From positions 1-25,370 of IMG/VR virus record IMGVR_UViG_3300032893_000261: a stretch of 25,370 nucleotides of DNA. The stretch is one strand, 5' to 3'. The notes under the pieces were generated by a model that saw only the letters and a program-made list of their open reading frames with translations, did no database searches and was not told where the DNA came from. The position numbers and the translations under genes were made by a program. Of this stretch, positions 2,063-22,367 are shown in pieces. The stretch comes from a virus. How positions within the stretch are numbered: position 1 is the stretch's first letter; each line of letters starts with the position of its first letter.

Positions 2063-2095
2063 AAGATGAATAAGATGAATAAGATGAATAAGATG
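2063..2095 (+). repeat. 9-bp tandem repeat with four in-frame ATG codons
   Basis: The unit AAGATGAAT is repeated about 3.7 times. It encodes Met-Asn-Lys triplets at the very start of the next gene and places ATGs at 2066, 2075, 2084 and 2093, all in one frame. The purine-rich AAAGGAAG at 2058-2065 is too close to the first ATG and better spaced for the second, so the start used is uncertain. Confidence 0.8.
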
Positions 2096-2521
2096 TATGA
2101 ATTTTCACCCGAAGATATAGAGTCTTTAACTACTTTAGAATTGATAAAAGAATTTGATCTCTTAAGAAGGATAAAAGAAAAGCTAGAAGAAAAGCTAAAA
2201 GAAATAAATAAAAAATATGATTTCATAAGAATAACGGTAATACCAAATAGGTTTGAGTCAGAGGGAATTGAAAGTATGAAAGTAGAAGGAGTAGGAAGAA
2301 TCAATCTAACTGGTGATATGTATGTATCAATCCTTCCTGACAAAAAAACCGAAGCGTATGATTTTTTTAGAGATATTGGGAAAGGCTCTTTAATAACAGA
2401 AACGATCAACAGTTCTACATTAAAGGCGGCGGTGAAACAAATGATACTATCTGGTGAGGAGGTTCCAGATAGTATTGTTAAGGTCACCCCTTTCACAAGA
2501 GCCTCTATAACAAAGAAATAG
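2066..2521 (+). CDS. phage protein of unknown function with N-terminal coiled coil (151 aa)
   Basis: The longest reading frame gives 151 aa. The start is ambiguous because a 9-bp repeat supplies four in-frame ATGs; the second (2075) has the best distance to AAAGGA. Residues about 20-55 form a strongly charged Lys/Glu helix, likely coiled coil. The rest is a compact domain with a GVGRINLTGDMYVSILPD strand pair and a C-terminal segment (LKAAVKQMILSGEEVPDS, then VKVTPFTRASI). Similar proteins are common in phage replication or recombination modules. It lies between the helicase-linked gene and the 240-aa gene and is probably co-transcribed. I do not recognise a defined biochemical role. Confidence 0.75.
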   Translation: MNKMNKMNKMYEFSPEDIESLTTLELIKEFDLLRRIKEKLEEKLKEINKKYDFIRITVIPNRFESEGIESMKVEGVGRINLTGDMYVSILPDKKTEAYDFFRDIGKGSLITETINSSTLKAAVKQMILSGEEVPDSIVKVTPFTRASITKK

Positions 2522-2610: not shown

Positions 2611-3333
2611 ATGAAAAATGAAATCATTTTACCGAACGAAATTATGCCTGATTTTTTGAAAAATAAACAATCAATAAGAGGGACTGAGAATATAACAGCG
2701 GAAGATCTGATAATTCCAAGATTAGAATTAGTCCAAGATTTATCCCCCTGCAGGAAAAAACAAGATCCAAATTACATTGATGGTATTGAAGAAGGTATGC
2801 TGTACAATAATGTAACCAGACAGAATTATGGTTTAGAAGCTTTAGTTCTCCCTGTTTATTACAAGAAGGAGTTTTTGTTGTGGAAGACTAGGGATTCTGG
2901 AGGTGGGTTTAGGGGTGCTTTCGAATCAAAAACAGAAGCTGAAAAATTTAAATCTTCATTGGAAGATCACCAGCACATAGAGATAGCTGATACTGCCCAA
3001 CACTTTTGTTTGTTGATCCACCCGACATCCAACAAAGTTGAAGAAGTAGTGGTATCAATGAGCAGGTCTAAGCTAAAAGTATCAAGGAAATGGAATTCAT
3101 TGATTAGGATGAATTCTGGTGATTCATTTAGTAGAGTGTACAAAATCAGTACGGTCTCAGAAAAAAATGCAAAAAACCAAGATTATTATAATTTTTGTAT
3201 TTCGCCTGCTGGCTATCCAACTGCTGAAGTTTATGATAGGGCTGAAAAGTTGTATGAAGCTATAAGTAGTGGTCTAGGTAAAGTAGACCGCAAGTTTGAC
3301 GAAGAACCGGAAATTTCTGGTTCTGAATATTAA
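2611..3333 (+). CDS. conserved phage protein, possible ssDNA/recombination accessory (240 aa)
   Basis: The ATG at 2611 has GGAG about nine bases upstream. The N-terminal half contains IIPRLELVQDLSPC and a 'yIdGieeGMlYNNVTRQNYG' segment, seen in a family of phage proteins that sit beside recombination or replication genes. The C-terminal part ends in an acidic tail (DEEPEISGSE), a feature of many phage single-strand-binding proteins. There are no nuclease or ATPase motifs. The neighbours are the 151-aa protein and the SF1 helicase, so a DNA-transaction role is plausible. The ssDNA-binding idea rests only on context and the acidic tail. Confidence 0.75.
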   Translation: MKNEIILPNEIMPDFLKNKQSIRGTENITAEDLIIPRLELVQDLSPCRKKQDPNYIDGIEEGMLYNNVTRQNYGLEALVLPVYYKKEFLLWKTRDSGGGFRGAFESKTEAEKFKSSLEDHQHIEIADTAQHFCLLIHPTSNKVEEVVVSMSRSKLKVSRKWNSLIRMNSGDSFSRVYKISTVSEKNAKNQDYYNFCISPAGYPTAEVYDRAEKLYEAISSGLGKVDRKFDEEPEISGSEY

Positions 3334-3383: not shown

Positions 3384-4805
3384 ATGGTAGATACTTTCAG
3401 CGTATATGGTCCGCCAGGTTGTGGAAAAACAACCGAAATGTTAAAAAGATTAGAGGAAGCTAAAAACAAATATTCAGTTGATGAAATTTGTTTTTTATCG
3501 TTTACAAAAGCTGGCGCTTCAGAAGCTTTGAAACGCCTCAACATAAAAAAATCAGAAAAAATATGCACAATACATTCATTGATGTTTAAATTGAACAACT
3601 TATCGGTTGTTTCGGTTGTCGATCACAATAAATTGAAAAAGTTTGGTGATAAAACGGGGTTTAGGTTCAAAGGTACTACAAATGACACATCTGAGAACAT
3701 GGAAATCGGTGATCAATATTTATCAATTTTATATAAAGCTGTTAATAAAATGGTTGATATAAAAAGTGAATATTACGAATCAAATAGACCAGGAGACTGG
3801 CATAATTTCAAGTTTTTTTGTGAATGCTACGATAATTGGAAGCTGTCGAACGGATATTGTGATTTTAACGACATGCTGTTGATGTATTTGAGGAATACGG
3901 TCGATCATAAATCAAAAGCGGTTTTCATAGATGAGGCTCAAGATTTATCTAATTTGCAATGGTCAGTTGTTGATAAAATTATTTCGTTCCCATATGTTAA
4001 GGAAGTCCATATAGCTGGAGATGATGACCAGTCTATATATGAATGGTCAGGTGCTAACGCTCATGGTATGCAAAGATTTGAAAACAAATACGATTCTGAT
4101 AGATTGGTACTGAATCAATCATTTCGTGTACCGAGATCAATACACGAAATAGCCATTAAGACAGTTAATACAATAAAGAGAAGGGTACAAAAAGAATATT
4201 TACCGAAAACTGATGAGGGTATAATAAGACGATCGTCATTTTTTAATTCGAATTTATTTAGTAGTGGTGATGACGTACTGATTTTATGTAGAAATTTTGT
4301 TACAAAAAAAGAGATAGAAGAAGAATTAATTAGATCAAGGGTACCTTATTCTAATGATAGTGGTTTGCCTAGTTTATTTAGTAACAGGATAGCTGAAGCT
4401 ATAAAAATATTTAAAAAAATGGAAAATGGTGAGGCATTAACACAACCCGAAATAGATAAAATGTTAACAGTTTCCGACGATAGAACTAAAAAAGAATTAT
4501 CAACTAAATCTTTCCAACAAGTGTTGAAAAGGGGGTACATGGCTTCTTTTGTTATACCCATACATCTGGTAGATTTTTATAGAGAAGCGGATTTTTCAGT
4601 AATACCGACTGTCAGAGTGTCGACGATCCACGCATCTAAAGGTAGGGAAGCTGACCACACAATACTTCATACAGGTTTGACCAACAAAACTTTGTTGGAT
4701 ATGGATAGTAATCCAGACGCTGAGGCAAGGGTATGGTATGTTGGGTTAACTAGGTCTAAAAGGATATTGGATATAATTGAAGGAGACAACGGGTATGCGG
4801 TCTAA
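3384..4805 (+). CDS. SF1A (UvrD/Rep-like) DNA helicase
   Basis: An ATP-dependent 3'-5' DNA helicase of the UvrD/Rep group, expected to unwind DNA at the phage fork or in repair. Motifs visible: Walker A GPPGCGKT (residues 9-16), Ia SFTKAGASEAL, Walker B FIDEAQDLS (about 180), III IAGDDDQSIYEWSGA (about 211), IV LNQSFRVP, V STIHASKGREAD (about 413-424) and VI YVGLTRSK (about 450). At 473 aa it is shorter than cellular UvrD (about 720 aa), lacking much of the 1B/2B insertions, as is usual for phage versions. AAAGGAT precedes the ATG. The last codons overlap the polymerase start by 11 bases, implying translational coupling. Confidence 0.93.
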   Translation: MVDTFSVYGPPGCGKTTEMLKRLEEAKNKYSVDEICFLSFTKAGASEALKRLNIKKSEKICTIHSLMFKLNNLSVVSVVDHNKLKKFGDKTGFRFKGTTNDTSENMEIGDQYLSILYKAVNKMVDIKSEYYESNRPGDWHNFKFFCECYDNWKLSNGYCDFNDMLLMYLRNTVDHKSKAVFIDEAQDLSNLQWSVVDKIISFPYVKEVHIAGDDDQSIYEWSGANAHGMQRFENKYDSDRLVLNQSFRVPRSIHEIAIKTVNTIKRRVQKEYLPKTDEGIIRRSSFFNSNLFSSGDDVLILCRNFVTKKEIEEELIRSRVPYSNDSGLPSLFSNRIAEAIKIFKKMENGEALTQPEIDKMLTVSDDRTKKELSTKSFQQVLKRGYMASFVIPIHLVDFYREADFSVIPTVRVSTIHASKGREADHTILHTGLTNKTLLDMDSNPDAEARVWYVGLTRSKRILDIIEGDNGYAV

Positions 4806-6621
4806 ATTTCCTAATATATCAGAATGTAGATATATTAGCTATGATACAGAGACAACTGGTTTAAGTTGGTGGAAAGATAAAGTTTTTGGGGTGTCTATAT
4901 GTACTCCGGATGGAGAAGGGTACTATTTCGACATAAGGAAAGATGAAGAGGCATTAAGATTTTTGAGAAGCGAAATCCCGAAATGCAGAAAGATAGTATG
5001 TCACAATGCTAAATTCGATTGGCATATGTCAAGAGAAATCGGAATAATTTTTCCAGATGACCGCATTGATGATACAATGTTACGGGCCGCATTGATAGAT
5101 GAACACTTATTAACATATGATTTAGACTCTCTAGGTAACAAATACATAAAAATTGGTAAGGACACTAAAATCTATGAAGAGTTATCGGAAATATTTGGCG
5201 GTAAACCAACGAAAAGTGCTCAAATACCTAATTTATCACGGGCCCCACACAATCTCGTAGCCAAATATGCAATACAAGACGCCACAACTACTCTGAAGTT
5301 GTGGGAATGGCAAGAAGAAGAAATAGATAGGCAAAATATTCACAATGTGTGTGAATTAGAAAGAAGACTGTTACCGGTTTTAGTTGATATGGAACGGTAT
5401 GGGGTTAGAATAGATGTAGACAGAACTGAAATAGCTATTAAAGAAATAGATCAACAGTGTGAAACAACACAAAAAAAATTAAACCAATTAGCTGGGTTTG
5501 ATGTTAATCCAAACCCTTCCAATTCTATTAAAGCGTTATTTAAACCGAGATTTGTTGACGACAGGTGGGTTTTGATTGATGGTACTGTAGCCCCATCAAC
5601 CGATAAAGGCGGTGTTAGTATTGATTCTACAGTATTGAGAACAATGAAACATCCCGCAGCCGGATTAATTTTAAAGTTGAGGAAGATGATAAAAACTAGG
5701 GACACATTTTTGAAAGGACATATTCTTAATCATCACAACAATGGTGTTGTGCATGCTAACTTTAATCAAACTAAATCAGATAACGATTTGGGCACAAGCA
5801 CCGGAAGATTGTCTGCAAATAATCCCGCACTACAACAGATACATAAAAGAGATGTGGAAATCGCTTCAATTGTTAGATCCTTGTTTTTACCTGATGAACA
5901 TCATGTTTGGGTTTGTAACGATTGGGCACAGATGGACTTCAGGGTATTCGCTCATTATGTCAATGACAAAAGAATATTGGAGATCTATGAAAAAAATCCG
6001 GACACAGACTTTCATAAGTTGGCCAGTGATCTAACTGGCCTACCTAGGTCCCCACGATTCACCGGTGACGCTAATGCTAAACAAATAAATTTAGGGTTGG
6101 TGTTCGGAATGGGCCAAGGCCGACTTGCTGCCGAGATGGGCTTGCCCTACACGGTTGAGGTTAGCGCCAGCGGTAGAGAATACATAAAACCAGGAGAGGA
6201 GGCGACTAGAGTGTTTGAGAAATATCATGAGGCGATTCCTGGTGTACAAGATCTATTGAAAAACGTTGCATCCATCGCTAGAAGTAGGGGTTATGTAAAA
6301 ACTATTTATGGGAGACGAATACGTTTTCCGAAAGGTCAACACACTCACAAAGCGGCGGGGCTCATATTCCAGGGCTCAGCAGCCGATGCGCTGAAATTAA
6401 AATTAATCGAATTACATAATTATTTGAAATCGACAAATTCCGAAGCTAGGTTATTGTTGAATGTCCATGATGAATTTGATGTGTCAGTACCGGTAGATAG
6501 AGACGATATAAAAAAAGAAATAAGTAGGATTGTAACAGAATTCAATGATGAAATAAAATTTAGGGTTCCAATTAGAACGGATCAAGGAGTCGGGGAGAAT
6601 TGGTGGGAAGCATCAAAATAG
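4795..6621 (+). CDS. dpoZ: family-A DNA polymerase with 3'-5' proofreading exonuclease (DpoZ-like)
   Basis: The replicative polymerase, PolA family. The exonuclease is DEDDy type: YDTETTG (D17, E19), CHNAKFDW (about 69-76) and YAIQD (about 157-161), all catalytic residues present. The polymerase has motif A NDWAQMDFRVFAH (about 376), motif B AKQINLGLVFG (about 428) and motif C NVHDEFD (about 556). Differences from E. coli Pol I: motif A has Asp where Glu710 lies; motif B has Leu at the Phe762 position and Phe at the Tyr766 position; the Arg754 position appears not to be Arg. ATG 4795 is chosen over 4777 because AAGGAG (4780-4785) is correctly spaced. Beside purZ, mazZ and datZ it is the expected aminoadenine polymerase; that assignment is by context and family. 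Confidence 0.92.
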   Translation: MRSKFPNISECRYISYDTETTGLSWWKDKVFGVSICTPDGEGYYFDIRKDEEALRFLRSEIPKCRKIVCHNAKFDWHMSREIGIIFPDDRIDDTMLRAALIDEHLLTYDLDSLGNKYIKIGKDTKIYEELSEIFGGKPTKSAQIPNLSRAPHNLVAKYAIQDATTTLKLWEWQEEEIDRQNIHNVCELERRLLPVLVDMERYGVRIDVDRTEIAIKEIDQQCETTQKKLNQLAGFDVNPNPSNSIKALFKPRFVDDRWVLIDGTVAPSTDKGGVSIDSTVLRTMKHPAAGLILKLRKMIKTRDTFLKGHILNHHNNGVVHANFNQTKSDNDLGTSTGRLSANNPALQQIHKRDVEIASIVRSLFLPDEHHVWVCNDWAQMDFRVFAHYVNDKRILEIYEKNPDTDFHKLASDLTGLPRSPRFTGDANAKQINLGLVFGMGQGRLAAEMGLPYTVEVSASGREYIKPGEEATRVFEKYHEAIPGVQDLLKNVASIARSRGYVKTIYGRRIRFPKGQHTHKAAGLIFQGSAADALKLKLIELHNYLKSTNSEARLLLNVHDEFDVSVPVDRDDIKKEISRIVTEFNDEIKFRVPIRTDQGVGENWWEASK

Positions 6622-6634
6622 GGGATTAACGGTA

Positions 6635-6664
6635 TTGACTTTTTAAAAATAGTTATGATATAAT
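6635..6664 (+). promoter_or_regulatory. sigma70-type promoter of the Z-nucleotide operon
   Basis: TTGACT (6635-6640), an 18-bp AT-rich spacer and a perfect TATAAT (6659-6664) lie 22 bases before the 52-aa membrane-protein gene. This gives the purZ-mazZ-datZ operon its own start, separate from the polymerase transcript. Confidence 0.85.
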
Positions 6665-6686
6665 TCAATTATGAAAAGGATAGTAT

Positions 6687-6845
6687 ATGGGAAATTTAAT
6701 AGAAAGGCACCCGACCGCGACTTTGATCTTAGTCTTTTTATTGTTCGGTTATATTAGTGAAATGGATTTTAAAGATTCACAATGCGATATAGAAAATCGA
6801 AATAATCCTAATTGTGAAATATATTTTTCCGGAGAAATTAAATGA
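6687..6845 (+). CDS. small single-span membrane protein heading the Z operon (52 aa)
   Basis: This short gene has AAAAGGA six bases before the ATG. It follows a strong promoter, and its stop overlaps the purZ start (ATGA), so translation is probably coupled. Residues about 10-23 (PTATLILVFLLFGYIS) form one hydrophobic span after a short N-terminus with Glu-Arg-His. The remaining about 28 residues are polar and contain two Cys (33 and 43). No cleavable lipobox is evident. I do not recognise the family. Possibilities include a superinfection or membrane-associated factor, a partner that tethers a nucleotide enzyme, or mainly a coupling leader for purZ. Confidence 0.6.
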   Translation: MGNLIERHPTATLILVFLLFGYISEMDFKDSQCDIENRNNPNCEIYFSGEIK

Positions 6846-7960
6846 TCAAAAAAGTTTACATGATAATCGATTTACAATATGGATCTACTGGTAAAGGGTT
6901 GTTGGCTGGGTATTTAGCAAAGCAACAATGTCCAGATACTGTAGTAACAGCATGGGCCGCAAATGCAGGCCACACATATATTTCTGAAGATGGTAGAAAA
7001 TTTGTGCACACAATGTTGGCTAATGGCATTGTGTCCCCGAATTTAAAAAAAGTAATGATTGGACCAGGTTCGATCATTGACACAGAAAATCTATATAAAG
7101 AGATGGACAAGTGTAAAGATTTATTGGGAACAGTTGAAATATATATTCATGAAAATGCTGCAGTGATAACAGATGAGCACAGAAAAGAAGAAGATAAGTC
7201 TATGGTAAAAATCGGGTCAACAAAAAAAGGTTGTGGAGCTGCAGCAATACAGAGAATAAAGCGCGATCCAGATAATATGAACACTGCTGAAGTTATGCAA
7301 TGGAATAATATAACCTTTAGAAAAATATTGAGAGATTTTAGAAACGTTAGTGTTGTTAAAAACACCACATATCAACAATTATTAGATACAAGTGAGATAG
7401 TTGCGATAGAAGGTGCTCAGGGATATAGCCTTTCCATATATCACGGATTTTATCCTTATACAACTTCAAGAGACGTTTCAACGTTTCAAATTTTAGCCGA
7501 TTGCGGTATACCGGCTGGCTGGTTTAAGTACATAACTATCATCGGTACTGCAAGAACTTTTCCTATTCGTGTTGCGAATAGATTTAATGAGTCGGGTGAA
7601 CAAGTCGGGTGGAGTGGGCCGTGTTATCCGGATCAAGAAGAAATAACATTCGAATCAATAAATCAAGAAATAGAATTAACAACTGTGACAAAATTACCAC
7701 GAAGAATTTTCACATTTTCAGTTAAACAAATAGCCGAAGCGGTTAGACAAAATAAAGTTGACAAAATATTTTTAAATTTCGCTAATTATTGCCCATCCAG
7801 AGATTATTTAAGTACGATAATTGACAACATAGAACATGTGTCAATTGGTGGTAATGTTGAGTGGTTGGGGTTTGGTCCTTGCCATGACGACATTGAGACC
7901 AAATCATCTTTAATAAAAGAGGGCTATTTCAATTCTGAGGGGGTATCTTACCATGAGTGA
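6842..7960 (+). CDS. purZ: PurZ: 2-aminoadenine-pathway adenylosuccinate synthetase homologue
   Basis: PurZ condenses dGMP with L-aspartate, using ATP-type energy, to N6-succino-2-amino-dAMP. Host PurB and kinases then give dZTP for a 2-aminoadenine genome. It is a PurA-family fold with phage-specific marks. The PurA motif GDEGKGK is GSTGKGL here (residues 14-20), so the catalytic Asp13 of PurA is replaced by Ser, the known PurZ hallmark. The general-acid His of NAGHT is kept (His44). Also seen: GSTKKGCGAA (about 126), EGAQGYSLSIYHGFYPYTTS (about 193) and RTFPIRV (about 238). Length is 372 aa against about 430 for PurA. GGAG at 6831 sets the start. The gene overlaps mazZ by 8 bases. An ordinary PurA is unlikely given the Ser. 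Confidence 0.93.
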   Translation: MIKKVYMIIDLQYGSTGKGLLAGYLAKQQCPDTVVTAWAANAGHTYISEDGRKFVHTMLANGIVSPNLKKVMIGPGSIIDTENLYKEMDKCKDLLGTVEIYIHENAAVITDEHRKEEDKSMVKIGSTKKGCGAAAIQRIKRDPDNMNTAEVMQWNNITFRKILRDFRNVSVVKNTTYQQLLDTSEIVAIEGAQGYSLSIYHGFYPYTTSRDVSTFQILADCGIPAGWFKYITIIGTARTFPIRVANRFNESGEQVGWSGPCYPDQEEITFESINQEIELTTVTKLPRRIFTFSVKQIAEAVRQNKVDKIFLNFANYCPSRDYLSTIIDNIEHVSIGGNVEWLGFGPCHDDIETKSSLIKEGYFNSEGVSYHE

Positions 7961-8417
7961 GATAAAAGATTTGACTAAAGAAATTGTGGAGTGGGCGGAT
8001 TCTGTATTTCCGGACAGAGGACCGCAGGCAGCTTTATTAAAGTTATTTGAAGAAACAGGAGAATTGGTAAAAAATCCAAAGTCTCCTGGAGAATATGCTG
8101 ATATTTGTATAATGTTGTTTGATTTGGCAAATATGAATGGTATTGATTTATCATCAGCCATCAAAGATAAATTACAAATAAATAAAAGAAGGACTTGGGA
8201 AAAATCCTTAACCGGTACTCTTCAACATACCATATTTCCGGATTTTGAACCATCTGAATTATTACGGCTATCAGAAATAGCTAAAAATCTATATGAAATA
8301 GGTAAAAGAGATTTCAGAATGGGAAAGGCACAGAAAACATTTAAAGATTTTTCATGCATCAAGGAATATGAATGGTATTTGAATGGATATAGAATGGGAG
8401 ACGGAGATAATGATTAG
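7953..8417 (+). CDS. mazZ: MazZ: MazG-like nucleotide pyrophosphohydrolase with C-terminal RMF-like extension
   Basis: A MazG-fold NTP pyrophosphatase; in Z phages MazZ converts (d)GTP to (d)GMP, the PurZ substrate. The metal-binding signature ExxE...ExxD is present as EETGE (E34, E37) and EYAD (E47, D50). Residues 1 to about 90 make the enzyme. The remaining about 55 residues form an extra segment (about 110-149) with pattern 'nlYeiGkrdfrmGK...Y-WYLNGYrmG', resembling the small ribosome-modulation-factor/CrpP-like fold found on many phage proteins. GGGGG at 7938-7942 precedes the ATG. The gene overlaps purZ by 8 bases and datZ by 8 bases. The enzyme call is firm by motif and context; the RMF-like identification of the tail is tentative. 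Confidence 0.88.
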   Translation: MSEIKDLTKEIVEWADSVFPDRGPQAALLKLFEETGELVKNPKSPGEYADICIMLFDLANMNGIDLSSAIKDKLQINKRRTWEKSLTGTLQHTIFPDFEPSELLRLSEIAKNLYEIGKRDFRMGKAQKTFKDFSCIKEYEWYLNGYRMGDGDND

Positions 8418-8940
8418 TTTGATTGAAAAACTGAGAACTGGCCATGTACATAGATGGCATATTGTCAGAACCGCGAGAGAACAAACTCTTGCCGAACACA
8501 TGTATAGAGTATATTTAATCACAGATGAAATATGCAGAATTCTAAACTTACATGAAGATGTTTGGGGCATATGTATTATTTGGGCTTTAAACCATGATGT
8601 ACCAGAAGTTTTAGTAGGTGACATGCCCACACCTACTAAAAAATTTTTGAAAGGTGCCTTTAATCATATTGAAAATAGTTTAGATAAATTACACAAAGCT
8701 ATGTATGAAGATCTAAAAGAAAACAATCCCGTAGTATTAGATATAGTAAAATTAGCGGACTTGATGGAATCGATTGATTTTTTAACTTTAGAGGCTATAG
8801 GTGATCATGCCTCAAATGTTAAAAAGAGTCTATCTAGTGATTTTTTTAGCGAGGTGTCAAAATGTAGAGAAAAATATCCCGATCATGACTGGAACAAAAT
8901 AGTAACATTGCTGTCAACCATTTTACCTATAGGAAGCTAA
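8410..8940 (+). CDS. datZ: DatZ: HD-domain dATP phosphohydrolase
   Basis: DatZ dephosphorylates dATP (and dADP/dAMP) so that the polymerase sees dZTP instead of dATP. The protein has the YfbR/DatZ-type HD layout: HRWHIVR (12-20), QTLAEHMY (metal His30), NHD (His62, Asp63), GDMPTPTKK (70-78) and KLADLMES (Asp117). The start at 8410 is chosen because GGAGACGGAG lies just upstream and it overlaps mazZ by 8 bases; the in-frame ATG 27 bases earlier has no ribosome site. Length is 176 aa, typical for the family. Position directly after purZ and mazZ supports DatZ over a generic 5'-nucleotidase. Confidence 0.9.
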   Translation: MISLIEKLRTGHVHRWHIVRTAREQTLAEHMYRVYLITDEICRILNLHEDVWGICIIWALNHDVPEVLVGDMPTPTKKFLKGAFNHIENSLDKLHKAMYEDLKENNPVVLDIVKLADLMESIDFLTLEAIGDHASNVKKSLSSDFFSEVSKCREKYPDHDWNKIVTLLSTILPIGS

Positions 8941-8942
8941 AG

Positions 8943-9365
8943 ATGAACAAAAAAGTTAAAATAGAAATTGGACCAATAGTGTCTGCTGATGATTTCGGTA
9001 AACCTATACCTACCCACCATTATGAGTTCGGCAGGGTTAGAGAGAAACCAGAAATTCAATACGGTGAAATCTTTGATCTAGATTTTTTTTACAAAATCGG
9101 GATTGATGATTTATTTTTCACAGAAAATAAAGAATTGATTTATGATGGTATGATGATGGTAACTCAAACAATAATAGATAGATTAAAAGTAATTTATGAA
9201 GAATATTTAAATAAAAAATTGTTTTATGCTGAAAATGTTCAATTGATTTGGTTGTATAAGTGGATGGAAGCTTGTTCCAGGTATATGGTTTTGCCTGGGT
9301 TCCAAGTGTCTTGGGTGATTGAAAACGAAAACAGTGAGTTAAAAAATGAAAAAAGAGGAATTTGA
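8943..9365 (+). CDS. unknown protein downstream of datZ (140 aa)
   Basis: This gene starts two bases after the datZ stop, with AGGAAG six bases upstream, so it belongs to the same operon. The protein is acidic and rich in aromatic residues, with helical segments (about 58-90 and 95-118, the latter WLYKWMEACSRYM) and an N-terminal strand region containing THHYEFGRVREKPEIQYGE. There is no membrane span and no catalytic motif I can name. A link to the Z pathway is suggested only by its place. Confidence 0.75.
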   Translation: MNKKVKIEIGPIVSADDFGKPIPTHHYEFGRVREKPEIQYGEIFDLDFFYKIGIDDLFFTENKELIYDGMMMVTQTIIDRLKVIYEEYLNKKLFYAENVQLIWLYKWMEACSRYMVLPGFQVSWVIENENSELKNEKRGI

Positions 9366-9699
9366 AAAATTTATAGAGGATCAGTTTAACACAATCAAAA
9401 CTTTATCTAGAAGTAAAGGAGAAGAGTATTCTAGAAGTCAAGATCAATTAGCTAATTTCAAAAGGCAGTCGATCGACCTTGGCGTAGACCCAGAAAAAAT
9501 TTTAATGGTTTATTTAAATAAGCATTTAGATGCTATAAAATATTGGGTTAAGAATAATGAGTCACTTTCAGAAACGATACAAAGCAGAATCGATGACTCA
9601 ATATTATACCTTATTCTTTTAAAAGCGATTATTAAGGATGTTGGATCACCGTCTTCTTATAGCATAGACCATTGGAAAGGTACAGAGAGGCATGAATGA
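9346..9699 (+). CDS. all-alpha protein resembling nucleotide-modification-associated domain (Nmad1/DUF1599-like)
   Basis: A 117-aa helical protein overlapping the preceding gene by 20 bases. The sequence 'SKGEEYSRSQDQLANFKR' (about 23-40), 'LNKHLDAIKYWV' (about 57-68) and 'SRIDDSILYLILLKAII' (about 80-96) matches the pattern of phage proteins annotated as nucleotide-modification-associated domain 1. These proteins are MazG-like in helical layout and often sit in modified-nucleotide operons. If correct, the operon carries a second nucleotide-handling all-alpha protein besides MazZ. The acidic MazG metal motif is not evident, so catalysis is uncertain. It is the last + strand gene before the convergent leftward block. 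Confidence 0.7.
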   Translation: MKKEEFEKFIEDQFNTIKTLSRSKGEEYSRSQDQLANFKRQSIDLGVDPEKILMVYLNKHLDAIKYWVKNNESLSETIQSRIDDSILYLILLKAIIKDVGSPSSYSIDHWKGTERHE

Positions 9700-9727: not shown

Positions 9728-10132
9728 CTAAAAGCCCTTGATAAGTATTTCCTTTAATTCATCGGGGTTTATTGAATTTTCCCAAAACTTTAGGGCAATT
9801 TTTTTGTGTTCATCATAAGTCAGTTGCCCTATCTCATAAACCATTTCCCACCCGAATATCATATAATTTTTTTCAACTTGTAATAGCACAAAACATAATC
9901 CCCCCCTTCTCCCAAATGTTTTTATCCAATTCCTTTGAGTAGAAGTTAAATGATCTATTTTCATGATTTTTTTAGGAAGTTTTTCTAAATATTTTAGTTC
10001 AATCCAACCATGGGTTTTTATGCAATAAGATAAATCAGGAATACCTGATGAGTATTTATCTTCATGTCTTTGCACTTCCCAGTGTTTTGACATTATTCTT
10101 GATAAATATTTATATAAGGTTTTTTCTGACAT
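9728..10132 (-). CDS. VRR-NUC-like (PD-(D/E)XK) nuclease, 134 aa
   Basis: A small nuclease of the VRR-NUC/resolvase-like group. From Met at 10132 the protein begins MSEKTLYKYLSRIMSK. The nuclease core follows as GIPDLSYCI (catalytic Asp), then a strand with WIELKYLEK (the ExK pair), and QRNWIKTFGRRGG plus CFVLLQV, the usual VRR-NUC tail. A longer frame reaches 10264 through a TTG, but those residues overlap the upstream gene's end and are not nuclease-like. The ATG at 10132 fits family length, though its ribosome site is weak. It is probably a structure-specific or junction nuclease for recombination or repair. It is the last gene of the leftward block and convergent with the Z operon. Confidence 0.75.
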   Translation of the reverse strand: MSEKTLYKYLSRIMSKHWEVQRHEDKYSSGIPDLSYCIKTHGWIELKYLEKLPKKIMKIDHLTSTQRNWIKTFGRRGGLCFVLLQVEKNYMIFGWEMVYEIGQLTYDEHKKIALKFWENSINPDELKEILIKGF

Positions 10133-10190
10133 ATGGGGACCATGTAAGAGAATATGTAACGACAGGAGGACGGCTTTCCACGGGCATTTT

Positions 10191-10226
10191 ATAAAAGGGT
10201 GGAGGGATATACATAGCCAACCACCC
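10191..10226 (-). terminator. hairpin with T-run after the 149-aa gene
   Basis: On the minus strand GGGTGG pairs with CCACCC (stem 10221-10226 with 10197-10202, loop 18) and is followed by TTTTAT. It could partly terminate the leftward transcript before the nuclease gene. Confidence 0.4.
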
Positions 10227-10235
10227 GAGAGAAAA

Positions 10236-10685
10236 TTATGGAGAGATAACAAACTTCCCTTCAATTTTTGTTATTTTTTCCACATCAACCAATCCGACTT
10301 TAACTAGCCGTCTAATTCTGTTACCTATATTCATTCTCTTTAAGCCGTTAGATAAGTGGCTTATTTTGTTTTTAAGGTCTTCAACATTAATCCCGACAAT
10401 TCCGGCTAGTTGTAGCATTTCTTCTAAGTCATCTGCTTCTTGAAGAAGTTTTGCTACATCATCATTTATATTTTGAATTTTTTTACCGGAAGACCTAGAA
10501 TTTGGTTTTTTGTTTCCAGCTTTTATAGGTCTTAATACTTGAGCTGCAAACATTTTAATGTGGCCTTTTTTTTCTGCGTGAACATATATAGTTGTGTCAC
10601 TATCATCAATACGTGTCACGACCCATTTATTATCTGGTTCATCACGATATTGCACAGTATCTCCGACTTTATATTTAAGTTCCAA
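10236..10685 (-). CDS. phage protein with SH3/KOW-like N-terminus, paralogue of the 14202-14726 product (149 aa)
   Basis: The start codon is TTG at 10685, supported by GGGAGG (10691-10696) at proper spacing. Residues 1 to about 55 (KVGDTVQYRDEPDNKWVVTRI...) look like a small beta-barrel. Residues about 73-135 form a helical domain, DDVAKLLQEADDLEEMLQL ... ISHLSNGLKRMNIGNRIRRL. This matches the C-terminal domain of the 174-aa protein at 14202-14726 (DKIAELLRGKSIDEVYQIV ... YSKLNVGMQRMALGNCLRG). The pair therefore comes from one family that is frequent in phages. The 'LN-GM-RM-LGN-lRG' signature is shared by both. No biochemical function is known to me. Confidence 0.75.
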   Translation of the reverse strand: MELKYKVGDTVQYRDEPDNKWVVTRIDDSDTTIYVHAEKKGHIKMFAAQVLRPIKAGNKKPNSRSSGKKIQNINDDVAKLLQEADDLEEMLQLAGIVGINVEDLKNKISHLSNGLKRMNIGNRIRRLVKVGLVDVEKITKIEGKFVISP

Positions 10686-14201: not shown

Positions 14202-14726
14202 TCACACTATCTCAAGCTCTTTTTGTTGCTTTGCTTCTTTTTTAGCTTGTTTGTTATAATGTCCGCGCAAACAATTACCAAGTGCCATTCTTTGCATTCC
14301 AACATTTAGTTTAGAATATCTAGACATTAACTCATTTACTGTAATGTTTAATGTGTTCGAAACAATTTGATAAACTTCATCAATAGATTTACCCCTCAGC
14401 AACTCTGCTATTTTGTCATTACAGTCTATCGTACGCCTGCCGCTGCTTGTGCGCGTATCAGACACATAATAATTAGAAATTAAAGATCTTGAGTTGCCGA
14501 CTTTCACATATTTTTCACCAAATTTATCTTTCACAATATAAGCTCCGACACTACTTGCACTACTTGAATCTTGCATTTTGTTTTTCTCCGAACTAAAATA
14601 CTCAATATTACTGTTTCGAATTTTTTTCATTTTACCGTCATTGAAAAAAATTGTCGACCAGCCGCCTTTAACACTACTTAGTGTCACTACTTCTTTCGTA
14701 TCACTCAATCTAACTAACATTTTCAT
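14202..14726 (-). CDS. phage protein, paralogue of the 10236-10685 product (174 aa)
   Basis: First gene of the leftward early block, about 36 bases behind a TATAAT with leader GAGAAGAGAGATAGAAAATG. The N-terminus (MKMLVRLSDTKEVVTLSSVKGGWSTIFFNDGKMKKIRNS) looks like a small beta domain. A Ser-rich linker follows. The C-terminal helical domain (about 103-158) carries DKIAELLRGKSIDEVYQIVS and YSKLNVGMQRMALGNCLRGHY, shared with the product of 10236-10685. The tail is Lys/Gln-rich. This family is widespread in phages. A nucleic-acid-binding role is plausible from the basic tail, but is not shown. Confidence 0.8.
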   Translation of the reverse strand: MKMLVRLSDTKEVVTLSSVKGGWSTIFFNDGKMKKIRNSNIEYFSSEKNKMQDSSSASSVGAYIVKDKFGEKYVKVGNSRSLISNYYVSDTRTSSGRRTIDCNDKIAELLRGKSIDEVYQIVSNTLNITVNELMSRYSKLNVGMQRMALGNCLRGHYNKQAKKEAKQQKELEIV

Positions 14727-14761
14727 TTTCTATCTCTCTTCTCTATTAAGTTCAAAATTCT

Positions 14762-14877: not shown

Positions 14878-14912
14878 AGAATTTTGAACTTAATAGAGAA
14901 GAGAGATAGAAA

Positions 14913-15498: not shown

Positions 15499-15516
15499 TA
15501 TACACACATATGTACG

Positions 15517-15794: not shown

Positions 15795-16409
15795 ATGATA
15801 AATGTAGATATATATAAAAAACAATTGGAGCATCAGTATGCGCAAGAGGCCATTGATGAAAAAAATAATATAACTATATTTGCGATAGGTGGGTTCATGC
15901 CTGAGGATATCGAAGAGGCAAAAAAATGGTTGTTAACTAATCAAACATTGAAAAACATGACTGGGATGCAATTAAATATTTCGGAAATAATAAAAATTGA
16001 GAATGAGTTTAGAATTTCCTTAATCAATAAACTGAACTATTTTCTAAAGTGTTTGGAGCAATCAAAGGGAGTGTTGAAGAATGCATTGATGTTGTGTGGT
16101 ATGAGTAGGGGGCAAGTAGAAAAGTATAGGGGTGACTTTCCGATATTTAGAACGGTGTGGGATGAAATAGTTCAGGGCATTATTGACGAACTGGAGGAAG
16201 CAGCTTTCCAAAGGGCTGTAAGGGGTGTTGAAAAAGATGTTTATTTCAAGGGGCAGGTAGTTGGTAAAGAAACACAATATTCAGATAGTTTATTAGCTTT
16301 AATGTTGACGAATAGACGGTCCGAACTGTATGGTAAAGATAAGGACACTAAGAAAGAAAATGGGCAAGTGTTATCAGTAACTATAAATAAAGATGATGAA
16401 AAATTATGA
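15795..16409 (+). CDS. terS: terminase small subunit
   Basis: The DNA-recognition subunit of the packaging motor. The C-terminal half has the usual terS pattern: LEEAAFQRAVRGVEKDVYFK (about 133-153), then GKETQYSDSLLALMLTNRRSELYG (about 156-179). A helical N-terminal region contains a possible DNA-binding segment (LKNALMLCGMSRGQVEKYR). At 204 aa it is longer than P22 gp3 (162 aa) and differs in sequence. The next gene, terL, overlaps as ATGA. The gene-free repeat region just upstream is a natural candidate for its recognition site. Confidence 0.88.
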   Translation: MINVDIYKKQLEHQYAQEAIDEKNNITIFAIGGFMPEDIEEAKKWLLTNQTLKNMTGMQLNISEIIKIENEFRISLINKLNYFLKCLEQSKGVLKNALMLCGMSRGQVEKYRGDFPIFRTVWDEIVQGIIDELEEAAFQRAVRGVEKDVYFKGQVVGKETQYSDSLLALMLTNRRSELYGKDKDTKKENGQVLSVTINKDDEKL

Positions 16410-17743
16410 AATTAACCGCTAAGCAACAAGAAGCGAAAAAAATATTCATAAACAAATCTATGAATATTATGTTGTTTGGTGGGTCTCGTTCTGGTAAAAC
16501 TTTTTTAATGGTTTGGGCAGTGGTGATGAGAGCTATTAAGGCCCCTGGGTCACGCCATGCTATTTTAAGATTCAGATTTAATCACATAAAAGCATCTATA
16601 ATACTGGACACTTTCCCAAAAGTGATGAATATCATGTACCCTGGGGTAGAGTGGGTACTAAACAAATCAGATTGGTTTGTTAAATTCTCTAATGGTTCTG
16701 AAATATGGTTCGCGGGGTTGGATGATAAAGAAAGAACAGAAAAAATATTAGGTAATGAATATGTTACTATATATTTTAATGAATGTAGCCAAATAGCTTA
16801 TCAGGCTGTTGGGGTTGTAACAACTCGTTTAGCCCAAAGAGTGTATCAGATCATTGAAGGTAGGGAGAATGTGTTGATATCTCCGAAAGCATATTTCGAC
16901 TGTAATCCTCCTTCGAAATCACATTGGACATATCAATTATTTATAAAAAAAGTGGATCCAGAAACAAGAGAACCACTTATCAATCCAAGTAATTTTGTAT
17001 CATTCAAAATGAATCCGGTAGATAATGCCGAAAATCTTTCTGAAAACTATTTACAAACATTGAAAGAATTGCCCCCCCGATTAAGAAAAAGGTTTGCAGA
17101 AGGAGAGTGGGCGGATGCTACTCCTGGGGCATTATTTAGTGATGAAACGATAGAAAAATGGAGAGTAATTGATTCTGAAATCCCCGAACTGACTAGAGTG
17201 GTAGTGGCAGTGGATCCGTCGGGATCGGGGGATACTGACAATGCTGACAATGATGCTATTGGTATAATTGTTGCAGGATTAGGTATTAATGGGGTATGTT
17301 ATATACTAGAAGATTGTACAGTAAAAGCTGGGCCTGGAGTGTGGGGGCGTGTGGCTACTTCGGCATACGATAGGCATAAAGCTGATACAATCGTGGCAGA
17401 AACTAATTATGGCGGGGCTATGGTGAAACAGGTAATACAGGTAGCCCGTCCAAGAACTCCAGTGCTGGCTGTTACAGCCAGCAGAGGTAAAATGGTAAGG
17501 GCTGAGCCAATTTCGGCTTTATATGAACAGGGGAAAGTAAGGCATGTTGGGTATTTCCATGAGTTAGAAGAAGAATTAAGTTCTTTTTCAACCACAGGAT
17601 ATTTGGGGAAAGAATCACCAAATAGGGCGGATGCTATGGTTTGGGCCGTTAGTTCGTTGTTTCCAGCTATTATGAAATCAACGGAAAAATCCAGTGCATC
17701 TTCTGTTCTTCCTGTTGTTAATCATTATAATAGGCAAGCATGA
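16406..17743 (+). CDS. terL: terminase large subunit (ATPase/nuclease)
   Basis: The motor that pumps DNA into the prohead and cuts it. The N-terminal ATPase has Walker A GGSRSGKT (residues 25-32) and Walker B with the catalytic Glu in YVTIYFNECSQ (about 119-129). The C-terminal RNase H-like nuclease has VVAVDPSGSGD (about 264), IVAETNYGG (about 330) and the last acidic site in NRADAMVWA (about 407). At 445 aa it is complete and slightly shorter than P22 gp2 (499 aa). It overlaps terS and the portal gene by four bases on each side, so the three are translated together. Confidence 0.96.
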   Translation: MKLTAKQQEAKKIFINKSMNIMLFGGSRSGKTFLMVWAVVMRAIKAPGSRHAILRFRFNHIKASIILDTFPKVMNIMYPGVEWVLNKSDWFVKFSNGSEIWFAGLDDKERTEKILGNEYVTIYFNECSQIAYQAVGVVTTRLAQRVYQIIEGRENVLISPKAYFDCNPPSKSHWTYQLFIKKVDPETREPLINPSNFVSFKMNPVDNAENLSENYLQTLKELPPRLRKRFAEGEWADATPGALFSDETIEKWRVIDSEIPELTRVVVAVDPSGSGDTDNADNDAIGIIVAGLGINGVCYILEDCTVKAGPGVWGRVATSAYDRHKADTIVAETNYGGAMVKQVIQVARPRTPVLAVTASRGKMVRAEPISALYEQGKVRHVGYFHELEEELSSFSTTGYLGKESPNRADAMVWAVSSLFPAIMKSTEKSSASSVLPVVNHYNRQA

Positions 17744-19860
17744 TGGCTAGGAAATCTAAACAAGAAAAATTGTTCGATATTCATGAGGAAGCTCTTAGGG
17801 AGTTTGAATTAATTCAAACTGCATTACGTGATGAACGTATGCAATGCCTACAAGATAGAAGGTTTTATTCTATTGCGGGCGCGCAGTGGGAAGGGCCACT
17901 TGGGAATCAATTTGAAAATAAACCAAAATTTGAAGTAAATAAAATACATTTATCTGTGATGCGGATAATTAATGAGTATAGAAACAACAGAATAACTGTC
18001 AATTTTGTCAGCAAAGACGGTAATAATAGTAATGAATTAGCTGATATTTGTTCATCTTTATATAGGGCCGATGAACAGGATTCAATAGCCGAAGAAGCGT
18101 ATGACAACGCTTTTGAGGAGGGTGTTGGGGGCGGGTTTGGTGCTTGGCGTTTAAGGTCTGAGTATGAAGATGAGGAAGATGAGGAAGATGAAAGGCAGAG
18201 GATTCGAATAGAACCTATTTTTGATGCTGATTCGTCCGTCTTTTTTGATTTGAATTCGAAAAGACAAGATAAGAGTGATGCTAAATTTGCTTTTATAGTT
18301 AGTTCTATGACATATGACGCGTTTAAGAGTGAGTATGGTCAAGACCCTGCTGCATGGCCTAAAATTGTTACACAAAGACAATTTGACTGGCTAACACCAG
18401 ATATTGTATATGTAGCTGAGTATTATAAAATAGAATTTACAACGGAAACTATTCTCACATATGAAGGGTTGACGGGGGAAGAGAAACGAGTATCAGAATT
18501 GGAATTAGAAGAAAACCCAGAACTGGGATATGAATTAGAGTCAATGGGATTTAGGGAAATAAAACAAAGGAAGTTGAAAAAGAAAAAAGTACATAAATAT
18601 ATAATGTGTGGTAAATGTATATTGGAAGATTGTGGATATATTGCTGGGAAAAATATCCCGATTGTACCATTTTATGGTAAGCGTTGGTTTATTGACAATA
18701 TCGAACGATGCATGGGGCACGTTCGATTAGCTAAAGATAGTCAGCGTTTAAAAAACATGCAAATATCTAAATTAGGGGAAATAAGTGCTTTATCATCGGT
18801 GGAAAAACCGATTTTCACTCCTGAGCAAATATCTTCACACCAAGTGATGTGGTCAGAAGATAATATAAAAAACTACCCTTATTTGTTAGTTGATCCGATA
18901 ACAGATGGAACGGGTAATGTGGTGTCAATAGGACCAGCATCATACACAAAAGCCCCTGACTTACCGGCCGCATTGGCCGCATTACTTCAATTAACTGAAT
19001 CCGATATACAAGATGTATTAGGGAACCAAAAGATGGGGGAAAGGTTAATCGCTAACGTTAGTGACGAAGCTATAGGGCTCGTTCAAGGTAAATTGGATAT
19101 GCAAACATTTATTTACATATCCAATATGGCCAGATCTATAAAAAGATCTGGTGAAATATGGTTATCTATGGCCAAAGAAATACTTGTTGAAGAAGGTAGA
19201 ATTATGAAGGGTGTTGGGTTGCAGGGGGAGGTTACCCAAATAGAATTAATAAAACCACAATACAATCAAAATGAAGGGCGAATAGAATATTTAAATGATT
19301 TAAGTAATTCAGATTTCGATATAGCTGTTGAAGTAGGTCCTTCATCATCCAGTAGGAAAAATGCTATAACAAAAGCATTGACCAACATATTACAAATTGT
19401 CCAAGATCCCGAAACTATACAGGTTTTAGTGTCCATGATACTGATGAATCTTGAAGGTGAGGGAATTAATGATGTAAGATCTTATTTCCGCAAAAAATTA
19501 GTTAAATTGGGTGTTGTTAAACCCACAGAAGAAGAATTACTACAATTACAAGAAGAAGCTAAAATGGCTTCACAACAGCCTCCCGACGCTCAAACCCAAT
19601 TTTTACAAGCGTCCGCTGAAGAGGCTACTTCGAAATCAATAAAAGCTAAAGCAGACACTATGCTATCTTTAGCTAAGGCTGAAGAGTCTAAGGCCAAAAT
19701 ATTAGAAATATTGTCAAATGTTGATATAGATCAACAGAACCAAATACTTAAAGCCATTAAAAATTTTGCCCCACCCGCACTAGAGAGTAGTGATATTGGG
19801 CAAGAGCTGGGTGACCGTCGTACCCAAATCCCACAAATTGACGAGTTGAGTAGGGTCTAA
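17740..19860 (+). CDS. portal protein, P22 gp1-like
   Basis: The dodecameric portal through which DNA enters and leaves the head. At 706 aa it is close to P22 gp1 (725 aa). Typical segments: RDERMQCLQDRRFYSIAGAQWEG (about 32-54), FEVNKIHLSVMRIINEYRNN (about 66-85), KNIPIVPFYGKRWFIDN (about 304) and MAKDSQRL-like 'LAKDSQRLKNMQISKL' (about 329). The long C-terminal helical region (about 600-680, Ala/Lys/Glu/Gln-rich) corresponds to the barrel of P22 portal. Two ATGs in tandem open the gene, and the first overlaps the terL stop. Confidence 0.93.
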   Translation: MMARKSKQEKLFDIHEEALREFELIQTALRDERMQCLQDRRFYSIAGAQWEGPLGNQFENKPKFEVNKIHLSVMRIINEYRNNRITVNFVSKDGNNSNELADICSSLYRADEQDSIAEEAYDNAFEEGVGGGFGAWRLRSEYEDEEDEEDERQRIRIEPIFDADSSVFFDLNSKRQDKSDAKFAFIVSSMTYDAFKSEYGQDPAAWPKIVTQRQFDWLTPDIVYVAEYYKIEFTTETILTYEGLTGEEKRVSELELEENPELGYELESMGFREIKQRKLKKKKVHKYIMCGKCILEDCGYIAGKNIPIVPFYGKRWFIDNIERCMGHVRLAKDSQRLKNMQISKLGEISALSSVEKPIFTPEQISSHQVMWSEDNIKNYPYLLVDPITDGTGNVVSIGPASYTKAPDLPAALAALLQLTESDIQDVLGNQKMGERLIANVSDEAIGLVQGKLDMQTFIYISNMARSIKRSGEIWLSMAKEILVEEGRIMKGVGLQGEVTQIELIKPQYNQNEGRIEYLNDLSNSDFDIAVEVGPSSSSRKNAITKALTNILQIVQDPETIQVLVSMILMNLEGEGINDVRSYFRKKLVKLGVVKPTEEELLQLQEEAKMASQQPPDAQTQFLQASAEEATSKSIKAKADTMLSLAKAEESKAKILEILSNVDIDQQNQILKAIKNFAPPALESSDIGQELGDRRTQIPQIDELSRV

Positions 19861-19862: not shown

Positions 19863-20729
19863 ATGGAAGAACAACAGACAGGTGAAACAAATGATATTAT
19901 TGATTCTAATTCTGATCTCAATATTGTTGATGATTCAAACGATATTGAGACTGAGAGGGACAACCTTGATGAAGGAATTGAAGTATCTATTGATGGATTG
20001 GAGGAGTCGTCTGGTCCTCATGGTGACGAAAACAATAGCAGAGAAACAGTTGCTCCCGAGTGGGTTAAAGAACTTCGCAGAGTTCATAAAGAAACAGTTC
20101 GAGAGAATCGTGAACTACGTGAAAAAATAGCCTCAATAGAAGGGGCTAAACAAAAACCGTTATCAGAATTACCTAAAAAGCCAGAAATGGAAGATTTTAA
20201 TTATGACCAATATAAATATGAAGAAGCATTAAAAAAATATTGGATGTTGGAATCTGAAGTTGAAAGTAACAGGAAGAAATTAGAATTAGAAAAAGAATCC
20301 CAACAAAAAAGTTGGCAAGAAAAAATAGATAATTTTAATAGACAAAAATTGGAACTAAAAGTCCCAGATTTTGAATCTTCTGAAATGATCGTTGAAAATT
20401 CTTTTGATGTTACCCAGCAAGGGATAATACTTCAAGGGAGTCAAAACGCGGCTTTATTGGTATATGCTATTGGTAAGAATCCAGATAAAATTAAAGAGTT
20501 AAGTTCCATAAAAGACCCGATAAAATTTGCTTTTGCTATTGCAAAGTTGGAGAATAGTTTAAAAGTGACTAATAGAAAAGCACCACCACCAGAAAAATCT
20601 GTTCGGGGAGCCGCACCGTCCTCTGGAGTGATTGATTCTAATTTGGAACGATTAAGGGCTGAAGCAGAAAAAACTGGCGACTACAGTAAGGTAGTCGCTT
20701 ATAAGCGACAGCTTAAGTTTAAAAATTAA
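19863..20729 (+). CDS. scaffolding protein, P22 gp8-like
   Basis: The assembly chaperone that fills the procapsid and exits before DNA packaging. At 288 aa it has an acidic disordered N-terminus (Asp/Glu/Ser-rich to about 60) and a long helical centre with coiled-coil potential (about 65-165). The basic C-terminal helix-turn-helix (SNLERLRAEAEKTGDYSKVVAYKRQLKFKN) is the coat-binding feature of this family. It begins two bases after the portal stop and precedes the coat gene, the P22 order; P22 gp8 has 303 aa. Confidence 0.9.
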   Translation: MEEQQTGETNDIIDSNSDLNIVDDSNDIETERDNLDEGIEVSIDGLEESSGPHGDENNSRETVAPEWVKELRRVHKETVRENRELREKIASIEGAKQKPLSELPKKPEMEDFNYDQYKYEEALKKYWMLESEVESNRKKLELEKESQQKSWQEKIDNFNRQKLELKVPDFESSEMIVENSFDVTQQGIILQGSQNAALLVYAIGKNPDKIKELSSIKDPIKFAFAIAKLENSLKVTNRKAPPPEKSVRGAAPSSGVIDSNLERLRAEAEKTGDYSKVVAYKRQLKFKN

Positions 20730-20745: not shown

Positions 20746-22017
20746 ATGGCAAATAGTTTTAGTAAAGAAGAAAGAGTAGCTTTTGAACAAATGCTCGAGG
20801 GTTTTGAAGATGCGTTGGTTTTGTCTAAGGTAGTATCTGTATATAGAACAGATTCTTTAACCATGGAAAGAGCTAATAACACAATGTGGCGTCCTCAACC
20901 ATATATTTCCCAATCGTTTGCGGGCACAGATATGACCGCAAACTTTAAGGATTATATTCAGTTATCTGTGCCCGCTACATTGGGGTTCGGTAGATCCGTT
21001 CCCTGGTCGTTGACCGCAACGGAACTAAGGGATGCCTTGCAAGAACGCAGGTTGGGGGAGGCCGCAAAACAAAAACTTGCTTCCGATATAAATGTGGCTT
21101 TGATGAATTTAGCTGCTGGTAGTGGTACATTAGTTGTGGCGCGGCCCAGTGCGGCTATGGGGTTTGATGATATAGCCCAAATTGATACTATAATGAATGA
21201 ACAGGGTGTCCAACCAGAAAATAGATACGCCGCTCTTAGTTCAAATGATTACAATAACATGGCTAGTAATTTAGCTGCTCGTCAAACAATGACGGGAAAA
21301 CCAGTTACAGCTTATGAAAGGGCTTACGTTGGTAATGTGGCGGGGTTTGAAACGTTCAAGTTAGACTATGCTAATAGTCTAACTCCTTCGCTTGCTGTGG
21401 ATGTTACAGTTAATGGCGCTAATCAATATTATGTTCCCAAAGCTACTTTGGCGGCCGCTGGCGGAGCTCTGAATAACGTAGATAACAGGTACCAAAATTT
21501 GACCGTTACGGTGACCAGTGGAACTATTAAAGTCGGTGATTGTTTTACGATAGCCGGTATTAATGCTTGCCACCATATCACCAAAGGTGATACTGGGCAG
21601 CTTAAGACATTTCGGGTAACTAAGATAGTATCTGGAGCGGGTTCCTCTGGTGTTATTGAAATTAGTCCTCCAATAATTTCTGGCACGGGCGGTACAGCGG
21701 CTGAAGTTGAATACCAAAATGTGACGGCACCTCCTGCAAATGGGGCGGCAATAAGTTGGATTAACATCGCGCCGGCTAAAGTTAATCCATTCTGGCAAAA
21801 AGATGCTTTAGAATTATTACCTGGTCGATATGCTGTTCCCGAGGATGCCGGTACAGCAGTGATGAGGGCAACTACGGAGCAAGGTATAGAGATTGTGTTG
21901 CAGAAATTTTATGACATAAATACTATGCGAACAAAATACCGCCTAGACACATTGTTCGGGGTTGTTAACAAACAACCGGAGATGAGCGGAATATTGTTAT
22001 TCAGTCAATCTGTTTAA
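20746..22017 (+). CDS. major coat protein, P22 gp5-like with I-domain
   Basis: The capsid subunit with HK97 fold plus the telokin-like inserted I-domain of the P22 group. TAGGAG precedes the ATG. The N-arm and core are MANSFSKEERVAFEQMLEGF..., then SVPATLGFGRSVPWSLTATEL (about 74-94). The insertion spans about 225-345, with strand-rich, Gly/Thr/Val-rich sequence. The C-terminal core is KVNPFWQKDALELLPGRYAVPEDAG, then KYRLDTLFGVV. At 423 aa it compares with 430 aa in P22. Codon use here is richer in GC than that of the early genes, as expected of a highly expressed protein. Confidence 0.94.
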   Translation: MANSFSKEERVAFEQMLEGFEDALVLSKVVSVYRTDSLTMERANNTMWRPQPYISQSFAGTDMTANFKDYIQLSVPATLGFGRSVPWSLTATELRDALQERRLGEAAKQKLASDINVALMNLAAGSGTLVVARPSAAMGFDDIAQIDTIMNEQGVQPENRYAALSSNDYNNMASNLAARQTMTGKPVTAYERAYVGNVAGFETFKLDYANSLTPSLAVDVTVNGANQYYVPKATLAAAGGALNNVDNRYQNLTVTVTSGTIKVGDCFTIAGINACHHITKGDTGQLKTFRVTKIVSGAGSSGVIEISPPIISGTGGTAAEVEYQNVTAPPANGAAISWINIAPAKVNPFWQKDALELLPGRYAVPEDAGTAVMRATTEQGIEIVLQKFYDINTMRTKYRLDTLFGVVNKQPEMSGILLFSQSV

Positions 22018-22314: not shown

Positions 22315-22367
22315 AATTGAAGAAAAGAAAATTGAAGAAAAGATATTGAAAGAAGGAGATGACCAAA

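Follow-up and report, generated by a model that had tools for sequence, protein, structure and literature searches.

A predicted 2-aminoadenine (Z) DNA pathway encoded beside P22-type packaging and head genes in a metagenomic phage contig

The window analysed here is the whole stretch of 25,370 nucleotides of IMG/VR record IMGVR_UViG_3300032893_000261 (positions 1-25,370), a 25 kb fragment that ends after gp10. It encodes DpoZ, PurZ, MazZ and DatZ close together at 4795-8940, in that order and with a gap of 220 bases between the first two, and all four ORFs are intact. Helicase and Pam3-like genes precede them, and a minus-strand block and a P22-type packaging and head module follow (Table 1). 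Neither tRNA genes nor Rfam matches were found in the window.

Table 1. Features of the window, with their positions, strands and supporting matches
Feature	Position	Strand	Basis
SNF2-type helicase, first Z-module gene, 5' end cut by contig edge	2..1666	+	PF00176 3.7e-30; phrog_62 3e-110
Pam3 gp33-like protein, conserved in Z module	2066..2521	+	PF23984 8e-32; 53% in L090-L092
Pam3 gp34-like protein, conserved in Z module	2611..3333	+	PF23977 1e-68
UvrD/Rep-type helicase	3384..4805	+	PF00580 9.5e-26
DpoZ, family A DNA polymerase with 3'-5' exonuclease	4795..6621	+	NF038380, 7pbk, phiVC8 signature residues
PurZ, succino-amino-deoxyadenylate synthase	6842..7960	+	NF038379, 7odx, specificity residues
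MazZ, S-2L type (MazZ-1) dGTP pyrophosphohydrolase, C-terminal extension	7953..8417	+	PF04447, 7ody, metal ligands
DatZ, dATP triphosphohydrolase, HD fold	8410..8940	+	phrog_7076, 6zpa, residues
phrog_6802 protein	9346..9699	+	6e-22; after datZ in L091, L092, L095-L097, L254, same order
VRR-NUC nuclease, conserved downstream of datZ	9728..10264	-	PF08774 24.1 bits (cut-off 23.8, barely passed); 52% in L091, L254
phrog_8941 protein, minus-strand block between Z and head modules	14202..14726	-	7e-11; 36% in L254, same order
Terminase small subunit	15795..16409	+	phrog_4044 7e-22
Terminase large subunit	16406..17743	+	phrog_979 1.7e-77
P22-type portal	17740..19860	+	PF16510 5e-155, 518 bits
Scaffolding protein	19863..20729	+	phrog_648 2.8e-48
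P22-type coat protein (gp5)	20746..22017	+	PF11651 9e-101, 338 bits
P22 gp4-type tail accessory factor	22359..22856	+	PF11650 1.6e-12
P22 gp10-type head closure protein	23649..25052	+	PF11134 1e-30; phrog_578 5.5e-95

The polymerase gene starts at the ATG at 4795, with a longer ORF possible from a TTG at 4777. Its product scored 846 bits against the curated model NF038380 phage_DpoZ_1 (cut-off 500), while the general PolA model scored far under its own cut-off, and the best PDB match was 7pbk, the phiVC8 DpoZ (7.5e-142). In the alignment, all three phiVC8-type insertions are occupied by residues and the phiVC8 signature residues R440, L455, F459 and G548 are kept; with the NF038380 match, these insertions and these residues, the protein has, at the level of sequence only, the marks of a Z-selective polymerase. 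In the DpoZ tree the window grouped with L090 and L091 (96/95), and this group was nested in a broader set of IMG/VR phages. It should be noted that DpoZ alone is no proof of Z DNA, since DpoZ-like polymerases occur without a Z cluster, as in phiJL001 (PMC8599892).

PurZ reached 370 bits against NF038379 (cut-off 300), and here too the general model, that of PurA, scored far under its own cut-off; the best PDB match was 7odx, the PurZ of S-2L (3e-91). Residue S23 stands at the position of Asp13 of PurA, T24 and T273 are kept, and an Asn is found at S-2L Q308, as in phiVC8. The earlier note had named a grouping of PurZ with ordinary PurA as a result that would overturn its reading. In the PurZ tree the window fell within a supported group of PurZ proteins (98/94), and both E. 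coli PurA and phage Wayne PurZ0 lay outside this group. No named phage with a PurZ or a DpoZ at least 60% identical to those of the window was found.

The gene of MazZ sits between purZ and datZ. Its product scored 39.8 bits against PF04447 (cut-off 23), with 7ody, a MazZ structure, as the best PDB match (1e-16). The five metal ligands (E34, E35, E38, E50 and D53) are all kept, as are D60, which contacts the 2-amino group, and K31, K76, N80, R83 and W85. At the position of S-2L Asn20 there is a Phe, which is also present in the relatives L003, L004, L090 and L092. A reading of the C-terminal tail as RMF-like had no Pfam support. As regards DatZ, a longer ORF runs from 8383, and the ATG at 8410 is better spaced. 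The protein matched the dATP triphosphohydrolases of phrog_7076 (5e-32) and, in the PDB, best the DatZ structure 6zpa (6e-14), and it retains 15 of the 15 residues probed, including R19, W20, I22 and the HD ligands; W20 and I22 are the residues that exclude ribose and 2-amino purines. It is far from the characterised enzymes, being 33% identical to phiVC8 DatZ, and is the most divergent of the four Z proteins.

Residues were scored in alignments with S-2L, phiVC8, SH-Ab 15497 and E. coli PurA and PolA, at sites taken from the literature (PMC8065100, PMC8342488, PMC8599892). Nearly all of the published specificity and catalytic residues checked in the four Z proteins are kept, and the differences are tolerated ones. 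The earlier note had reported the four genes together in this region and had read in them the change of GDEGKGK to GSTGKGL (Asp to Ser), the ExxE and ExxD motifs of MazZ and the NHD of DatZ; all these motifs were seen, with GDEGKGK as the sequence of E. coli PurA and with EExxE and ExxD in MazZ, and the gene set was borne out by intact ORFs, curated models, best PDB matches and residues. In comparison with L090-L092, codon differences are mostly at the third position (0.59-0.78 of codons, versus 0.11-0.32 at the second position), and this concentration at third positions indicates that the Z genes are under selection.

All four proteins belong to broad superfamilies and are matched by general Pfam models, so one could suppose that ordinary purine and nucleotide enzymes (PurA, MazG, a YfbR-like HD protein and PolA) were gathered here by chance. 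We give this explanation practically no weight, since the curated PurZ and DpoZ models were passed while the PurA and PolA models stayed far below their cut-offs, the trees and the residues concur, and many phages share this order of genes. The identity of these proteins as ordinary PurA, MazG or YfbR was rejected on the curated models, the residues and the PurZ tree.

The roles of the Z-pathway enzymes are established for these families (PMC8342488, PMC8065100, PMC8599892). MazZ would cut dGTP to dGMP, which PurZ, with Ser in place of the catalytic Asp of PurA, would join to aspartate to give dSMP; PurB and kinases of the host would convert dSMP to dZTP, DatZ would destroy dATP, and DpoZ, a polymerase with a proofreading exonuclease, would incorporate Z over A. 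The likely benefit, as is usual for Z DNA, would be resistance to host restriction enzymes that read adenine. The earlier note had called this pathway complete, which stands for the part encoded by the phage and fails for the conversion of dSMP to dZTP, because this step depends on host enzymes (PMC8342488). The pathway is real and ordinary, of the standard kind, and its chemistry is already known.

From these genes we infer that A would be replaced by Z fully or nearly fully in the DNA of the phage. A different outcome would be that the genes are present and the DNA is only partly Z-substituted, or not at all, for example through loss or change of the activity of one enzyme. The DpoZ of phiVC8 prefers dZTP and can also use dATP (PMC8599892), so the exclusion of A may hinge on DatZ, precisely the most divergent protein. 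Against this, every DatZ residue probed is conserved, the four ORFs are intact and the differences fall mainly at third codon positions, and we regard partial or absent substitution as improbable.

The surroundings of the four genes are also those of a Z module. The SNF2 helicase holds the same place in Z-module relatives, and the block formed by the SNF2, gp33-like, gp34-like and UvrD genes upstream of DpoZ is also present in IMG/VR relatives; Kokobel2 and phiVC8 present the same upstream block except that one or two of its genes are missing or lie elsewhere. Downstream, the minus-strand block comprises the VRR-NUC nuclease, phrog_8941 proteins, an HTH regulator and an RNA ligase-like protein, and then the packaging and head genes begin. 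The two terminase subunits, portal, scaffold, coat, gp4 and gp10 are all P22-type, and those from the portal to gp10 lie in the P22 order; the assertion of the earlier note that P22-like head genes are joined to the Z set agrees with the families matched by portal, coat, gp4 and gp10. The large terminase subunit is 70% identical to those of L028/L029 and 62-66% to those of the Z contigs G001-G003. Ejection proteins are present in the relative G008; the window itself ends after gp10. A host could not be assigned from the coat matches, because the four cellular ones (Methylococcaceae, Thiotrichaceae, Lentisphaera and a further MAG contig), all of them MAG contigs, are too distant at 61-64% identity.

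Another aspect to consider is whether the junction between both modules is natural, given that the window is a single metagenomic contig. A Z-module contig and a P22-type head contig of two phages could have been misjoined at about 9.7-15.8 kb. The two halves mostly have different phages as their nearest relatives: those of the Z half are contigs that encode HK97-type heads (L090, L091) or a tail sheath (L092, L093), the DpoZ relatives at 65-70% identity mostly carry HK97-type or contractile-tail structural genes, and those of the head half are P22-type phages without PurZ, which was found in 0 of the 50 records that contain the nearest coat relatives. However, contig L254 (G070), which comes from a different metagenome and has 56% GC, crosses the same Z-to-head junction in the same gene order, namely PurZ, MazZ, DatZ, g117, VRR-NUC, g149 and g174 (these three on the minus strand), TerS and P22 portal, and ends in an incomplete P22 coat gene. 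The tail-to-Z side is found in G008, where a gp10 that is 51% identical to that of the window is followed by ejection proteins and then by the module from SNF2 to DatZ, and G002, G003, G096 and G102 combine PurZ with coat and portal genes of P22 type that are more divergent. Weak PF11651 matches in G074, G103 and G106 were not counted as P22-type, since the portals there are siphovirus-like. Moreover, the block genes g149 and g174, which reach up to the head side of the join, occur in Z phages too. Composition is continuous, with GC3 between 0.24 and 0.35 throughout the window, and the tetranucleotide signatures of the halves correlate at r 0.48, compared with 0.37-0.74 within single genomes and a between-genome mean of 0.22. 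An assembly chimera of both halves is unlikely, and we leave it only a very slight chance.

Gene content, homology, active-site residues, purifying selection, linkage and synteny are direct observations on the window, which very probably belongs to the genome of a short-tailed P22-type phage, one that would make 2-aminoadenine (Z) DNA through the known PurZ route. In this genome the four Z genes form part of a conserved replication cassette (SNF2 helicase, Pam3 gp33-like, Pam3 gp34-like, UvrD-like, DpoZ, PurZ, MazZ and DatZ), to which a P22-type module for packaging, head and tail has been joined. The sequence leads to the prediction of 2-aminoadenine DNA, with PurZ apart from PurA in the tree; in the same way we infer the enzyme activities, the actual Z content, the host steps and the virion form of the phage. 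A P22-type virion combined with a Z cassette appears to be an undescribed genome type that recurs in environmental viruses.

The Z module of the window also occurs, at 58-70% identity, alongside HK97-type head genes in some contigs and alongside contractile-tail sheath genes in others. Since it is shared across head and tail types, it behaves as an exchangeable replication cassette. Tail-sheath genes accompany the cassette in G006, G007, G011 and G012, and also PurZ in the more distant contig G117, the tail type being assigned in all of them by marker genes only. The Burkholderia myovirus Bm1, an isolate, has genes for a sheath and a DpoZ-like polymerase as well as purZ and datZ, and aminoadenine is not mentioned in the Bm1 paper. 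As two Z-phage papers of 2021 named only Siphoviridae and Podoviridae as Z phages, Z myoviruses may have gone unrecognised. A 2026 survey distinguished at least seven Z-phage groups and inferred horizontal transfer (PMC12884076), and the pattern of the window fits that expectation. The Z cassette is probably a portable unit that, at 58-70% protein identity, has been combined with structural modules of P22, HK97 and contractile-tail type. In that case at least three kinds of virion would package Z-DNA, among them those of a P22-type podovirus group and of Z myoviruses, both missing from the Z-phage literature examined. 2-Aminoadenine genomes would then extend to P22-type packaging and ejection, a classic and structurally well-understood system, and a P22-type Z phage would make it possible to study the effect of Z-DNA on headful packaging and on DNA ejection. 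The data suggest that the genes for replication and base substitution are transferred together, as one block, between phages whose virions are quite different, which supports a horizontal spread of the Z-DNA trait.

With respect to known Z phages, the statement of the earlier note that the better-described ones are mainly siphoviruses did not hold, since phiVC8, VP2/VP5, ZP6 and OH are podoviruses already known (PMC8515928), although their head is of another type than that of the window. Like the window, phiVC8 (Enhodamvirus, as are VP2 and VP5) is a podovirus with PurZ, DatZ and a phiVC8-type DpoZ, and both share the signature insertions and residues of the polymerase; identity to the window is 41% for DpoZ, 44% for PurZ and 33% for DatZ. 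phiVC8 is a model system and one of the two best-studied Z systems. Its head is HTVC010P-like and without PF11651, whereas the window has a P22 coat; its MazZ is a MazZ-2 and that of the window a MazZ-1; and it has a primase between DpoZ and PurZ and no match to the UvrD-like helicase of the window. The HTVC010P-like head and the MazZ-2 of the phiVC8 group (Enhodamvirus) are both absent from the window, which places it outside that group.

Cyanophage S-2L has adjacent PurZ, MazZ-1 and DatZ genes, as the window does, and provides the closest solved structures of the three proteins; unlike the window, it is a siphovirus with a PrimPol instead of DpoZ (PMC8065100) and lacks a P22 coat. The siphovirus group of Acinetobacter SH-Ab 15497, Providencia Kokobel2 and Salmonella PMBT28 shares with the window the order SNF2, UvrD-like, DpoZ, PurZ, MazZ and DatZ, with identities of 45-51% in DpoZ and 48-51% in PurZ. 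These phages are long-tailed and do not have a P22 coat, their DpoZ and PurZ genes are separated by an SSB or small gene, and their MazZ is longer, with extra domains. The closest named head modules, those of the P22-type phages MW202867 and Pseudomonas phage PfAn1 (coat 77% and 62% identical to that of the window), come without PurZ.

A P22 coat was found in none of the named representatives of the main non-actinophage PurZ groups tested, and an open-access, not exhaustive search of the literature yielded no description of P22-type Z phages. The uncultured fragments L254 and G008 present the cassette and block order of the window together with a P22-type portal and coat in the former, or with gp10 and ejection genes in the latter; their PurZ is 60-63% identical to that of the window, and the L254 portal only 27%. 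The feature that sets the window apart from the known Z phages is its P22-type head.

The MazZ encoded in the window extends C-terminally past the characterised enzyme of cyanophage S-2L, and this extension is without a Pfam match. It is also present in three of the viral relatives compared with the window (L092, L093 and L094), where it is variable. Three other relatives (L099, L100 and L101) encode a DpoZ with 46-48% identity to that of the window, preceded by the same upstream genes; no PurZ match was found within the stretches compared, which stop shortly after DpoZ.

The minus-strand block, located between the Z module and the head and packaging genes, includes a phrog_18326 protein whose C-terminal half is repetitive, rich in alanine and encoded by imperfect repeats of 9-33 nt. 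The window also has a perfect inverted repeat with arms of 54 nt, 92 nt apart, which contains a nested perfect inverted repeat of 23 nt; the inner arm of the latter had zero exact copies in the viral collection. Two divergent near-consensus sigma-70 promoters lie inside the larger repeat, one serving the minus-strand block and the other the ORF at 14913. A further inverted repeat of 35 nt, with arms 89% complementary and 169 nt apart, is situated in a probably non-coding stretch ahead of TerS.

Features of the window, with positions and strand
Feature	Position	Strand	Remark
MazZ C-terminal extension	8240-8417		
phrog_18326 protein	12426-13055	-	function unknown
54-nt inverted repeat	14720-14919		
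Promoter TTGACG/TATAAT	15259-15288	+	consensus-like
35-nt inverted repeat	15343-15581		
Promoter TTGACA/TATAAT	15735-15763	+	consensus-like; directly 5' of terminase genes

Tail-sheath genes were observed in the Z-module genomes L092 (G006), L093 (G007), L097 (G011), L098 (G012) and L162, which makes these five viruses candidate Z myoviruses. The last of them, Burkholderia phage Bm1, is an isolated phage, and its contractile tail has been seen by TEM.
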